This document shows positions 20,228 to 57,902 of a stretch of DNA of 64,000 nucleotides, in pieces; position 1 is the first letter of the stretch, and each line of letters starts with the position of its first letter. Where the stretch lies: positions 56,503 through 120,502 of the forward strand of contig MWYY01000061.1 of the NCBI GenBank assembly GCA_002050355.1. Reading direction: 5' to 3'. Source of the DNA: Acidobacteria bacterium 28-9 (GTDB lineage Bacteria; Acidobacteriota; Blastocatellia; Pyrinomonadales; Pyrinomonadaceae). The notes beneath the pieces are model-generated. The model saw only the letters and a list, made by a program, of their open reading frames with translations, made no database searches and had not been told where the DNA came from. The position numbers and the translations under genes are program-made.

Positions 20228-20326
20228 TGGCGGAGGCGTGTGGGAATCGAACCCACCCAAGATTGCTCTCACAATCTCGCAGACGGTTTTGAAGACCGCG
20301 CCGTTCACCAGAACAGATTCGCCTCC
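20228..20326 (-). tRNA. selC: tRNA-Sec (anticodon TCA)
   Basis: A 99-nt tRNA gene whose acceptor stem pairs GGAGGCG with CGCCTCC and whose CCA end is encoded (20228-20230). The anticodon triplet TCA lies at 20290-20292 in the loop of stem GCGGT/ACCGT. A long variable arm (GCGAGATTGTGAGAGCAATCT region) and the T-arm GGTTCGATTCC are visible. The length and UCA anticodon identify selenocysteine tRNA. selA is 21 kb away in the same window. Confidence 0.95.
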
Positions 20327-41353: not shown

Positions 41354-42841
41354 ATGAAAAACCACGAAATGCAAAACGGAGAGGCAAAGTATTTACGGTT
41401 TTTGCCTTCTGTTGACGCCCTTTTGCATTCTGAAACAGCAAACAAAATTTTGTCGCGCGCGGGCGCAAAACATCTGACGGTTTTAGCGCGCACTGCGGTT
41501 GATTCGCTGCGTCGAAAAATCCAGGACGAAATCGTCCAAAATGCAATAAACGAAGACGATTTTTCGTCTGAAATTTTGCTGATGAAAGCCGAAGAAAATC
41601 TCGACAGCATTTGGCAAGCGGAGCAAAATAGCGGCGCGCAAAAGGTTATCAACGCAACGGGCGTTATTATACATACGAATTTGGGACGCGCGCCGCTTTC
41701 GGAAAACGCGAGACGAGCGATTTCTGAAGAAGCGTCCGGTTATTGTACGCTTGAATACGACGTTCAAACCGGCAAACGCGGACGACGAGGCGCGCGTGCA
41801 GAACGGCTTTTAACCGAGCTTACGGGCGCAGAAAGCGCTTTAATCGTAAATAATTGCGCGGCGGCTTGTCTTCTTGTTTTGACCGCGCTGGCAAACGGCG
41901 GCGAAGCGATAATCTCGCGCGGCGAGTTGGTGGAAATCGGCGGAGATTTTCGCATTCCAGACGTAATGGCACAATCTGGCGCGATTCTCAGGGAAGTCGG
42001 CGCGACAAATCGCACGCGGATTTCAGATTATGAAAAAGTAATCAACGAAAACACTCGTTTAATAGTAAAAGTTCACCCGTCGAATTACCGCATTGTCGGG
42101 TTTTTTTCTTCACCAAACATCCGAGAACTTGCCGATTTAGCCGATCGAAAAAACATTCTGCTTTATGAAGACGCCGGTTCAGGCGCAATATTTGATTTGA
42201 GCGAATACGGTTTGGACGATGAGCCGGTGATAAGTCAATCAATCGCGGCAGGCGCCGACATCGTTACCTTTAGCGGCGACAAACTTCTCGGCGGCGTGCA
42301 ATCGGGTTTGATTGTCGGGCGCGGCGAAATCGTCGAAAGATTAAGAAAACATCCGCTTTATCGAGCTTTGCGGGTTGATAAATTGATTTATACGGCGCTC
42401 GAAGCGACACTCGAAGCATTTCGCAGCGAAACGGCTGTGAGGGAAATTCCGGTTTTGAAAATGCTCGCTCAAACAAACGTCGAACTCAAAGAGCGCACGA
42501 AAAAATTTGCCCGGAAATTAAGCGAAAATCTCGTCGAAAATTCCGTTCTGCAATTTGAAATTATAAAAGGGAACTCGGTCGTCGGTGGTGGTTCAGCGCC
42601 TATCGTCCAACCGGCGACAACTCTTTTAGCTTTAGAACACGAAAAAATGTCCGTCGCAACATTGGAGCAAAGTTTGCGATTTTCAAAGCCGCCCGTTGTC
42701 GCGCGCATTTTAGAAGATAAAGTTTTGATTGACCTGCGAACAGTCTCCGACGCAGAAGAAGCCGAACTTTTGGAAATTCTAACGGCAATTGCAACAGCAG
42801 ATAATATAATGGTGAATGTTGAATGTAAAACGATTCTTTAA
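41354..42841 (+). CDS. selA: L-seryl-tRNA(Sec) selenium transferase
   Basis: A 495-residue PLP enzyme that converts Ser-tRNA(Sec) to Sec-tRNA(Sec) using selenophosphate. The PLP lysine is K310 in TFSGDKLLGGVQSG; other blocks are NATGVIIHTNLGRAPL, YCTLEYDVQTGKRG, NNCAAACLL and EDAGSGAIFD. With the tRNA-Sec at 20.2 kb it shows selenocysteine use in this organism. selB and selD are not in the window. The last codons run into a heptamer hairpin (42803-42863), so the C-terminus (NVECKTIL) is partly repeat-encoded. Confidence 0.97.
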   Translation: MKNHEMQNGEAKYLRFLPSVDALLHSETANKILSRAGAKHLTVLARTAVDSLRRKIQDEIVQNAINEDDFSSEILLMKAEENLDSIWQAEQNSGAQKVINATGVIIHTNLGRAPLSENARRAISEEASGYCTLEYDVQTGKRGRRGARAERLLTELTGAESALIVNNCAAACLLVLTALANGGEAIISRGELVEIGGDFRIPDVMAQSGAILREVGATNRTRISDYEKVINENTRLIVKVHPSNYRIVGFFSSPNIRELADLADRKNILLYEDAGSGAIFDLSEYGLDDEPVISQSIAAGADIVTFSGDKLLGGVQSGLIVGRGEIVERLRKHPLYRALRVDKLIYTALEATLEAFRSETAVREIPVLKMLAQTNVELKERTKKFARKLSENLVENSVLQFEIIKGNSVVGGGSAPIVQPATTLLALEHEKMSVATLEQSLRFSKPPVVARILEDKVLIDLRTVSDAEEAELLEILTAIATADNIMVNVECKTIL

Positions 42842-54123: not shown

Positions 54124-57036
54124 TTACAAAATAGTACTTAAGACGTCATAAGTATTATTGAGCCAAGCTACAACTTCTCCGCCGAGAGTTTCTCTACCGG
54201 AGTTTGCGGCGAAAGCGTTCGTGTCCGGCATTGATGTTGTTGTCTGAGAAACACTACCATTGCTCCATGCTTCGACTTCAACAATTCTACTGTAGCTTGC
54301 CAATGCATTGTTTACCACAACTCTGATTCTTGTCGTCGTTACCGCCGAAAATACCAGCTTTGTCAATACTTTGTTGTTGTTCGTTATGCTTCCGTTCGGA
54401 ACCGTTACCCAACTCGAACCGTTCCAGTATTGAACATCAAAAGCCGTTATGCCATACAAATTGAAAGTATCACTTTCGGTTGGCTCAACCGAATTCGAGA
54501 TGTCATCCCGAACAGTAAAGACATCGATTTCATTGATTGTTTTGCTGCCGTTGAAATCTATCTGCAGCCAGTCGGGATAACTGTTAGCCGTTGCATCTTT
54601 CCAACCGCCGGTGATTGCCCACGTTCGGATACCGTCGATAGCTACGCTCGGCGCATAACTGAAAACGTTGTGGACAAATTCCGATGAAGCGGAAGCGACG
54701 CCTCCGTTTGCTGCTGATGCAACATTAGTGCGAACGCCCGAAGGAGTCGGCGTAATACCAGGAGGAGTCGATACCGGCGTCGGCGTAACCACAGGAGTTG
54801 GTGTCGGCGTCGGCGTCGGAGTAGCTGTCGGCGTTGGTGTAAATACGGGCGTTGGTGTCGGTGTTGAATTAACACTGCTACCGCTCCACGCTTCGATTTC
54901 AACAATTCTACTGTAGCTTGCCAATGCATTGTTTACCACAACTCTGATTCTTGTCGTCGTTACCGCCGAAAATACCAGCTTTGTCAATACTTTGTTGTTG
55001 TTCGTTATGCTTCCGTTCGGAACCGTTACCCAACTCGAACCGTTCCAGTATTGAACATCAAAAGCCGTTATGCCATACAAATTGAAAGTATCACTTTCGG
55101 TTGGCTCAACCGAATTCGAGATGTCGTCCCGAACAGTAAAGACATCGATTTCATTGATTGTTTTGCTGCCGTTGAAATCTATCTGCAGCCAGTCGGGATA
55201 ACTGTTAGCCGTTGCATCTTTCCAACCGCCGGTGATTGCCCACGTTCGGATACCGTCGATAGCTACGCTCGGCGCATAACTGAAAACGTTGTGGACAAAT
55301 TCCGATGAAGCGGAAGCGACGCCTCCGTTTGCTGCTGATGCAACATTAGTACGAACGCCCGAAGGAGTTGGTGTAATAATAGGGGTTGGCGTTGGTGTCA
55401 ACGTTGGAGTAGCCGTCGGTGTAAATATCGGCGTCGGTGTCGGCGTCGGTGTAAATACTGGCGTCGGAGTTGGGGTTGGAGTTAGTGTCGGAGTTGGTGT
55501 TGGCGTCGGTGTAAAGACTGGTGTCGGTGTTGGCGTAGATTGACCAACAACAGTTACAATGTTGCTGGAGGCAACGCTCGTATAAGTATTGTTCAATAAA
55601 TAGCGAAACTCATACTGACCCGGTTCGGTCCAGGGAAGAGTGGCACTGCCGGACGTTGCTCCACCAGTGGCTAAATATGCCAGATATTGAGTATTAGAAG
55701 TACCTACTCTAAAAAATCCAATCCAATCGACAGACGATGAACCGTTTGGCGCAGTCCAACTAATCGTTATTTCACCACTGGGAGCAATAGTGCTTGGGCT
55801 GGCAACCAGTGTGTAACTGGTGCTGGGAGGAGTAGGCGTCGGTGTCGGAGTTGTTGTTGTTCCGCTTGTAGTTAAACAACTGCCGTAGGTAGATACATAA
55901 TTTTGAATCTGGGTTTGTGACACGTCGCAAAAACTGGTGGCAAGGTAAGATATCACCGGATTCATAATTGAGTTTGTACAACTTCCAGTACTTTCAACGT
56001 GTTTAGCACCTAAACTATGTCCTATTTCGTGAGCAGTGATTAAATAATTGTTACCGCCGCTTCTGGCAGTCAGCGAGTAAGCCCAAGCCGGGTAACGACA
56101 AACAAAATCCGCACTGGAAATTCCACCGTTGCTGAGTTTGCCTGTATAAAGATGTGCTGCATCGCGTGGATACTGTGCGTACGAAAAGTTAGCGTTCCAG
56201 TAATTTTGAAATGAATTCAATACGGCATCCAATGTGGTTCCTGTATAGGGATCTGGAGTTGTCCAGACATTTTGGAAAGTTACTTTGACCGTTAAGTTTA
56301 AATCGCGTTTGTAAATTCCATCCACAAGGTTCATGATGCCTAGAATTTCATTATTCGCCGCGGCACCGCCGCCTGATTGCGTTACCCATAAATAATCGGC
56401 ATCGGTCGCTACTTCAAGCACCCGCAGTTCAACTGTCGCTTCAGCTGCTGCCATTGCGGTCCCTTTAAAAATGTATGGTTTGACGGCATCAAGACCAAGA
56501 TCTACCTTTCCTTCAATATCATCAGGCTGGTTTGGACTATCGTTAGACAAGTCAACGGTTTTTATCAAATCGCCTTCACCATATACAATGATATCGTCCT
56601 TACGGGCGTTTTTTGAATATTTTCGTGCTTTGGTCACAAAAAATTTCTCTCCGCCCCCTGTGTACATAAGACCTTCTATATTTTCTTCGGTTATTGTAAA
56701 ACGGACTTCAGAATCAAGGTCATTGCTTAATTTTCCCTTATAAGTTATAACTTCGGCTCGTTCCATTTCACGCTCGCCTGAATCATTACTTTCAATGGCT
56801 TTGTAATTACCGGCTCTCAAATCATTAGGCGTCAAAACAAACTGAAACTCACGCCCGTAGGCTTGAAATTCTATCGGTTGTTCGGATTTTGCTTTTTCGA
56901 GTACAACTTTGTTGTCTAACTCCACCAAGTTATATTTATGAAAAGATTTGTCCAAATCTTTATCTAAAGCATTCTGTCCAAACACAGAAACACTCATTAC
57001 AAACAAACTACATATAATAAAAATAAACCTAATCAT
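54124..57036 (-). CDS. Secreted metzincin metalloprotease with two near-identical discoidin domains
   Basis: A 970-residue protein: signal peptide (1-20), a reprolysin-type prodomain (about 25-195), and a metalloprotease domain with zinc site [11 protein letters not shown] (336-346) and Met-turn SIMNP. A beta domain (about 405-495) follows, then Thr-Pro linkers, an F5/8 type C (discoidin) domain, another Thr-Pro linker, a second discoidin domain and a short tail. The two discoidin copies differ at two positions over 468 nt (54280-54747 and 54901-55368). The protein is likely released and binds surface glycans while cutting protein. A GAGAGG Shine-Dalgarno precedes the ATG. Confidence 0.9.
54280..54747. 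repeat. Discoidin-domain DNA copy 1
   Basis: This 468-nt block recurs at 54901-55368 (offset 621 nt) with only two differences seen by eye. Confidence 0.9.
54901..55368. repeat. Discoidin-domain DNA copy 2
   Basis: Second copy of the 468-nt block at 54280-54747. The surrounding Thr-Pro linkers differ in length between copies. Confidence 0.9.
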
Positions 57037-57280: not shown

Positions 57281-57411
57281 ATGAAAGACTTAATTCTAGG
57301 GGGCTTTATTTTTATATCTTATTTTTCCGATTTTGTCAAACAAATTTTTTTACTGTTTGTAATCTTTATATTATTTACACGCCTAACGGCTTAAATTAAG
57401 CAAAAGTAAAA

Positions 57412-57442
57412 AAGCCTTTAGTTATGCAAAAACTAAAGGCTT
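57412..57442 (-). terminator. Terminator of the glutaredoxin gene
   Basis: AAGCCTTTAGTT (57412-57423) pairs perfectly with 57431-57442; read on the minus strand the stem is followed by a run of six T (57408-57413). Confidence 0.85.
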
Positions 57443-57464
57443 CAATATTGATAAAATTTGCAGA

Positions 57465-57477
57465 CGGCAAACTGCCG
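57465..57477 (-). promoter_or_regulatory. SECIS-like hairpin
   Basis: On the minus strand CGGCA-GTT-TGCCG forms a 5-bp stem with a GUU loop. The stem starts 19 nt after the in-frame UGA, in the position bacterial SECIS elements occupy, and the first loop base is G as they require. Confidence 0.5.
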
Positions 57478-57478
57478 G

Positions 57479-57718
57479 CTAATCAGGCGTAACCGTTCAG
57501 CCGCGCAGCGGCGTTCCCCAACCGGATTGTATGTATTCGCCGTTTTCGACAATGCACGGCACGACTAAATCTCCGCCGGAAAATTCGAGCATTTCCTTTT
57601 TTCGCAGCGCGTCGTCCTGAGCGTTGTGTTCAGTGAATCCTATATTGTTTTCGTTAAAATAATCGAGCGCCTTACGGCAATACGGGCAGCCCGGTTTTGT
57701 ATAAATTATCAAAGACAT
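57479..57718 (-). CDS. Glutaredoxin-like protein, probable selenoprotein (UGA read as Sec at residue 74)
   Basis: Glutaredoxin-fold protein with CPYC at 11-14 and cis-Pro at 54 (VVPCIV). The plain reading stops at a UGA (57497-57499) after GWGTPLRG. If the UGA is Sec the frame goes on for TVTPD and stops at TAG 57479, giving 79 residues. Support: the hairpin at 57465-57477, tRNA-Sec and selA in the same window, and the known occurrence of C-terminal Sec or Cys in glutaredoxin-like (Uxx-star-type) proteins. The ATG at 57718 has an AAGGAG Shine-Dalgarno. If UGA is a true stop, the protein is 73 residues ending in Gly. A thiol-disulfide or selenol-based redox role fits. Confidence 0.65.
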
Positions 57719-57902
57719 TTTCGCAGATTTCTCCTTTCTTCCAAACAGTTTAACAATTCTTGATTGACAGTCAACAACCAAAATCTAACATTGGATATTG
57801 ACAAATAAAAAATGATAAATATAGACGTTTTTGAACTGTTCTAAAAATCCAGTCGGTATTGAAATTTCCGCAAACGTTATGCAAATTCCGAAAATTTCAT
57901 TT

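Follow-up and report, generated by a model that had tools for sequence, protein, structure and literature searches.

A predicted long-tailed variant of the Uxx-star glutaredoxin-like selenoproteins in the Pyrinomonadaceae

Introduction

The locus described here raises the question of whether an in-frame UGA near the end of a small glutaredoxin gene is the end of that gene or a codon for selenocysteine (Sec). The gene lies in a stretch of 64,000 nucleotides from Acidobacteria bacterium 28-9 (Acidobacteriota, Pyrinomonadaceae), which was analysed as a whole and is referred to hereafter as the window. A reading made from the sequence alone had proposed a selenocysteine glutaredoxin with a SECIS-like hairpin, a proposal now supported by the UGA codon in 99 of 104 related loci, by the hairpin in 89 of the 99 UGA forms and by the presence of the Sec genes. 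At the level of sequence, the site carries UGA or a Cys codon in 104 of 104 loci, the codons past the UGA are constrained, the hairpin covaries at a nearly fixed distance and the Sec genes are present. The prediction that the window gene encodes a selenoprotein with Sec at codon 74 is strongly supported. The best explanation overall, which we regard as highly probable, is that the gene encodes a long-tailed Uxx-star variant with SECIS-directed Sec at UGA 74, which would act as a resolving-selenol oxidoreductase.

The gene, its predicted product and its neighbours

The reading frame lies on the minus strand, the sequence-only reading having given no strand, and runs MSLIIYTKPGCPYC...GTPLRG-UGA-TVTPD-TAG, followed by the hairpin CGGCA-GUU-UGCCG. 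The translation up to the UGA is MSLIIYTKPGCPYCRKALDYFNENNIGFTEHNAQDDALRKKEMLEFSGGDLVVPCIVENGEYIQSGWGTPLRG. The continuation of the glutaredoxin frame past the UGA into TVTPD and TAG is present as had been described, and the 5-bp stem with its GUU loop, starting 19 nt past the UGA, agrees with the coordinates (57477-57473, 57472-57470 and 57469-57465). A single spacer base separates the TAG from the stem, and the predicted Sec is the sixth residue counted back from the C-terminus. The features of the window are as follows.

20228..20326, minus strand: tRNA-Sec (selC), anticodon TCA (ARAGORN; Rfam RF01852, 72.9 bits)
41645..42745, plus strand: selA, SelA domain match (PF03841, 467.7 bits) in an open frame of 498 aa
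57482..57718, minus strand: predicted selenoprotein CDS of 79 residues (73 codons, UGA and TVTPD; stop excluded)
57718-57716, minus strand: start ATG
57677..57688, minus strand: CPYC active-site motif, codons 11-14, invariant in alignments A1 and A2
57497..57499, minus strand: UGA codon 74, predicted Sec codon (TGA in 99/104 loci)
57482..57496, minus strand: tail of five residues, TVTPD, following Sec (Thr in 99/99 UGA forms)
57479..57481, minus strand: stop TAG, whose counterpart is UGA in 35/99 UGA-form loci
57465..57477, minus strand: CGGCA-GUU-UGCCG, upper stem-loop of the predicted SECIS, lying 3' of the TAG
57411..57443, minus strand: terminator-like hairpin with T-run, separate from and downstream of the predicted SECIS (consensus match; 1 found vs 0.7 expected in shuffles)

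The window gene is flanked by genes for a PfkB kinase and an M12-type metalloprotease. Neighbours were surveyed as rough clusters of open reading frames within 1.5-kb flanks of the best 80 of 281 loci (L139-L218); these are not counted as independent, since most of them apparently derive from genomes that also contributed to the 104 loci considered below. A rhodanese-domain cluster lies upstream in 27 of the 80 and a protein kinase cluster downstream in 56, each named by Pfam from one representative. Since the neighbours in the window differ from these common clusters, no conserved partner can be named. A possible 2Fe-2S frame was also seen upstream, on the opposite strand, in 50 of the 80 loci, with one representative scoring 21.6 bits, below the cut-off of 22.8. 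The predicted metalloprotease of the window (54124-57036, minus strand, 970 aa) carries a pair of F5/8 type C repeats that are almost identical to each other, with PT-rich linkers between them.

Conservation of the UGA codon and of the tail

The homologue search covered 119 genomes of the family and gave matches in 105. A weak partial match in genome G017 and weak second matches in G100, G101 and G102 were left out, and the final set comprises 104 loci (L014-L117), of which L014 is the window itself. Two partial matches, L088 and L117, were kept; in the genome with L088 (G103) there is an additional TAG in frame, upstream. At codon 74, 99 loci have TGA, four have TGC and one has TGT. The alignment of UGA with Cys in homologues, a criterion for bacterial selenoproteins that the sequence-only reading had also suggested examining, is thus observed, with five Cys codons against 99 UGA.

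The residue after the UGA is Thr in all 99 UGA forms, encoded by ACG (79), ACC (14), ACA (5) or ACT (1), and the next is Val (61), Ile (37) or Leu (1). Variation within the first three tail codons is greatest, codon by codon, at the third base. The constancy of Thr across four codons, the restriction to V, I or L at the next position and this third-base variation together amount to coding constraint past the UGA. Homologues ending at RG with nothing conserved beyond would have spoken against the sequence-only reading; instead, 99 of 99 UGA forms continue as T-[VIL]-x. Their tail is of five residues in 43, four in 49 and three in seven, and never of two, and their final stop is TAG in 38, TGA in 35 and TAA in 26. 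Residues C11, P12, Y13 and C14, as well as R72, G73 and the Sec/Cys position, are invariant in the 18 rows of A1 and the 42 rows of A2; in the larger set, position 72 is Lys in one of the 99 UGA forms. The six more distant relatives found at class level (L134-L138 and L231) have U followed by three residues, three of them (L134, L137, L138) with CPHC in place of CPYC. The UGA form is also found in a cultured organism, Pyrinomonas methylaliphatogenes K22, where it reads RG-UGA-TVHD-UGA (locus L208) and has the hairpin GCCAAC-CGUGA-GUUGGC after it.

The predicted SECIS hairpin

The hairpin search required a loop of five nucleotides, the second of them G, starting 19-29 nt past the UGA, and scored six flanking positions per side in the best-pairing register, a score of at least 4 of 6 being a pass. 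A hairpin with an NG(U/G)NN loop, 20-26 nt past the UGA, was found in 89 of the 99 UGA forms, against a mean of 1.81 and a maximum of 7 in 200 dinucleotide-shuffled sets. At seven other offsets the count was 0-5 of 98-99, and the same search found the hairpin in none of the five Cys forms. Among the ten UGA forms below the threshold, L090, L096 and L097 show a tetraloop version by eye. The G at loop position 2 (89/89) was imposed by the search; position 3 was free and is U in 83 and G in six. The stem has undergone at least 49 changes from one Watson-Crick pair to another over its six positions (1, 4, 10, 9, 9 and 16), counted on a maximum-likelihood tree of 102 rows built from codons 1-73 only; this total is approximate, given the weak resolution of the tree (of its 99 inner branches, 31 are starred and 39 open) and the absence of a shuffled control.

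The limits for a bSECIS element, as given in PMC13188914, are a loop of 3-9 nt, a stem of at least 4 bp, G in the first two loop positions, a distance of 16-37 nt from the UGA and an MFE of at most -7.5 kcal/mol. Of the 99 UGA forms, 81 fall within these limits, against 4.65 on average (1-9) in 20 shuffled sets and none of the five Cys forms. Scoring with a bacterial SECIS model had been proposed; the window's own copy is among the 18 of 99 that fail the strict scoring (3-nt flanks). This copy has bSECIS geometry (3-nt loop GUU, 5 bp, 24 nt from the UGA), and its stem continues through a C-U mismatch into three more pairs, all included in a 24-nt fold that reaches -8.1 kcal/mol. Taken alone, it is unremarkable: z is -1.74 for the 24 nt, a fold at least as good is reached by 10 of 200 shuffles, and over the 43 nt beginning at the UGA another fold is preferred. 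An Rfam scan of 57300-57800 (E<=10) returned no SECIS family among its seven matches; the best of these, RF04312 trpB (57502-57402), spans the hairpin and the terminator and was rejected as weak, with 30 bits against a gathering score of 59.

Spacing and the second stop codon

The distance from the UGA to the loop is 19-25 nt whatever the length of the tail, most of the difference being absorbed by the gap between stop and stem. Where the final stop is itself UGA, the hairpin passes in 27 of 35 cases, with 5-10 nt between that UGA and the loop, and the two UGA codons of such tandem loci lie 12-18 nt apart, start to start. The final stop has changed between UGA and UAR at least 17 times on the tree of codons 1-73. 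Inspection of part of the rows revealed no conserved sequence past the second UGA, the hairpin itself apart. We propose that Sec would be inserted at the first UGA since the hairpin loop sits 19-25 nt downstream, and that the next stop codon would end translation even when it is UGA, the loop then being only 5-10 nt away. The simplest reading would be that Sec is assigned to one UGA or the other by distance. The clade offers some hundred natural variants in tail length, stop codon and stem sequence around a nearly fixed UGA-to-loop distance, so that the rule for SECIS spacing, and the way in which two neighbouring UGA codons are told apart, become directly testable.

Selenocysteine machinery

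The source genome (3.65 Mb in 117 contigs, 86.6% complete) contains the full set of selA, selB, selD and tRNA-Sec expected of an organism that makes selenoproteins. The tRNA-Sec was recovered by ARAGORN at the place where the sequence-only reading had put it, on the minus strand, and the SelA match falls inside the frame that it had assigned to selA (41354-42841). The proposal would have been undermined by a genome lacking selB or selD; selB is found at 404 bits and selD in two copies at 354.1 and 351.5 bits. These two copies (G000, C29:120497-121423 and C97:2281-3207; L009 and L010) are nearly identical, have an in-frame UGA in SCAG-U, and may represent paralogues or a mixed assembly.

Of the 119 genomes of the family, 106 score above the cut-off for tRNA-Sec and 94 for selB. 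In a control set of 14 named genomes the cut-offs were passed by five for tRNA-Sec and by two for selB, and weak tRNA-Sec matches are therefore not proof. At least one of the two genes is present in 98 UGA-form genomes and both are missing from one, as against 13 and seven of the other genomes (Fisher p 1e-5, uncorrected for kinship). The UGA-form genome lacking both is G089, which is 67% complete; the others are the Cys-form genomes G063, G065 and G079 and four genomes without the gene (G019, G047, G066 and G068). The Cys-form genome G056, 98% complete, keeps both selB and tRNA-Sec yet has a Cys codon and no hairpin, from which it follows that the change to Cys can precede the loss of the machinery. 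Its locus L053 (G056:C2:440199-440426), which has a longer, unrelated tail, is possibly a recent Sec-to-Cys change. Several strong tRNA-Sec matches per genome were also observed, in G093 (four of at least 66.8 bits, on C15, C6 (two) and C11) and in G036, G037, G100 and G106.

Structural model and proposed mechanism

Within residues 1-71 the fold of the protein corresponds to that of Grx and NrdH proteins. Among the matches listed, solved structures show no sequence match past query residue 70, and structure matches end at residues 69-72. The full-length model, computed with U as C, has a mean pLDDT of 95.9 and short strands at 52-53 and 74-75. The mean is 81.2 in the 73-residue model without the tail, where the value for residues 61-70 is 69 and the strand at 52-53 is missing. 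The alignments behind the two models differ (54-82% identity to the window protein for the full length, 67-88% for the 73 residues), and this difference in diversity could by itself lower the confidence of the short model, so that the drop is no clean test of the role of the tail. As read from the DSSP strings, residues 74-75 are predicted to pair with V52-V53 beside cis-Pro54. Proteins of the thioredoxin fold bind substrate beside the cis-proline, and the groove at this place is where glutaredoxins bind glutathione or substrate. A tail docked there would bring Sec74 next to Cys11 of the CPYC motif.

UGA 74 is likely decoded as Sec by SelB and tRNA-Sec, directed by the predicted SECIS just past the TAG. 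In the model, residues 74-75 of the tail would then dock on V52-V53 next to cis-Pro54, and Sec74, adjoining Cys11, would exchange a selenenylsulfide with the CPYC dithiol. The product would be a small thiol/selenol oxidoreductase with its own resolving selenol. A fuller picture, in which the Sec tail is bent into the substrate groove as a resolving arm, the SECIS beyond the stop serves as a ruler, and the tandem UGA has been switched on or off at least 17 times, is advanced tentatively, as an idea somewhat less likely than not.

Alternative explanations

The simplest alternative is that the UGA is a plain stop, that the 73-residue protein is complete and that the hairpin is a transcription terminator or a chance fold. 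It is where gene callers end the frame, 116 of 120 proteins among the matches listed spanning just the initial 91-92% of the query of 79 residues, and it agrees with the ordinary single-sequence fold of the window hairpin. However, it leaves unexplained the Thr past the UGA in 99 of 99 forms and the Cys codons at the site in five of 104 loci. A terminator fits poorly too, given that just 16 of 89 hairpins have TTTT no more than 10 nt from the stem, that a separate terminator-like site lies at 57443-57411 and that the hairpin is absent from all five Cys forms. We therefore consider a plain stop highly improbable, and it would follow from Sec at codon 74 that those 116 listed relatives stop short of the residue on which the function of the protein probably depends. 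Readthrough of the UGA by a near-cognate tRNA, inserting for instance Trp and no selenium, could be seen in the W placed at this codon in four of the ten database proteins inspected (P0002, P0024, P0030 and P0034), where genetic code 4 was perhaps used. In the 104 loci, however, the site alternates with Cys and never with Trp, and the UGA form is accompanied by the SECIS-type hairpin and, less sharply, by the Sec genes, which makes such readthrough extremely improbable.

A different matter is whether the protein is a selenoprotein that binds a metal or metalloid through Cys11, Cys14 and Sec74, with no redox relay. CPYC is the standard dithiol glutaredoxin motif and the fold matches Grx and NrdH, both of which speak against such a site, and no metal-handling gene is found among the two flanking genes scanned. 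The predicted position of the tail would nevertheless also suit a three-ligand site, and the review PMC13188914 mentions, for the Sec of UXX-star proteins, a possible role as ligand of a metal or an action on substrates yet to be identified. We consider the metal site unlikely, though a good deal less so than either reading without selenium, and retain the resolving-selenol oxidoreductase as the preferred function.

Comparison with known systems

The window protein belongs to the glutaredoxins by Pfam (PF00462, 51.6 bits; gathering score 22.9) and resembles the NF041212 Uxx-star proteins in its small Grx domain, in the C-terminal U after RG and in a score above the curated cut-off of 66 (71.5 bits with the tail, 70.9 without). 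This HMM matches 42 of 42 rows of A2 at E<=1e-5, the bit scores referring to the window protein. We take the name Uxx-star to mean U or C, then exactly two residues, then a stop. The tail past U is of five residues in the window and of 3-5 in the 99 UGA forms, and the protein is therefore a variant of Uxx-star rather than a strict member, in keeping with the earlier description of it as close to but not identical with these families. That description had also called it an unfamiliar form, which is only half right: NCBI already uses the name 'Uxx-star family glutaredoxin-like (seleno)protein' for some relatives (P0022, P0038, P0091 and P0106, each of 73 aa and stopping short of the UGA), and their selenoprotein nature is thereby already implied in public annotation.

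UXX-star family 1 (NF041114) shares the glutaredoxin-like domain and the C-terminal U, but the window protein scores 48 bits against its cut-off of 72; it is likewise below the cut-offs of family 2 (NF041211, 40.3 vs 100 bits) and family 3 (NF047338, 33.1 vs 97 bits). Eleven complete copies from other Acidobacteriota (L219-L229) have UPYT at the N-terminus and end in GTUGV or GSUGV before the stop, with two Sec and a two-residue tail; by resemblance only, they would belong to the NF041114 type. In ten of the eleven the final stop is also UGA (UGA-GGN-GTN-UGA). According to PMC13188914, several UXX-star families go back to Haft and Tolstoy 2025, and what Sec does in UXX-star proteins has yet to be settled. 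The portions of the selenoprotein and selenocysteine literature searched, a set outside which Haft and Tolstoy 2025 falls, yielded no statement on the long tail, on its variability at a nearly fixed SECIS distance or on the tandem UGA. The Sec-glutaredoxins, listed as UxxC in PMC13188914, have the glutaredoxin domain (PF00462) in common with the window protein and differ in that their Sec lies in the N-terminal motif, at the site of CPYC here. The NrdH-redoxins and dithiol Grx1/Grx3 proteins (PDB 4fiw, 1h75, 7c10 and 3grx) differ at the other end, residues 73-79 being uncovered in all 50 entries listed. The window gene thus represents no new selenoprotein family; it is a long-tailed variant of the known Uxx-star family.
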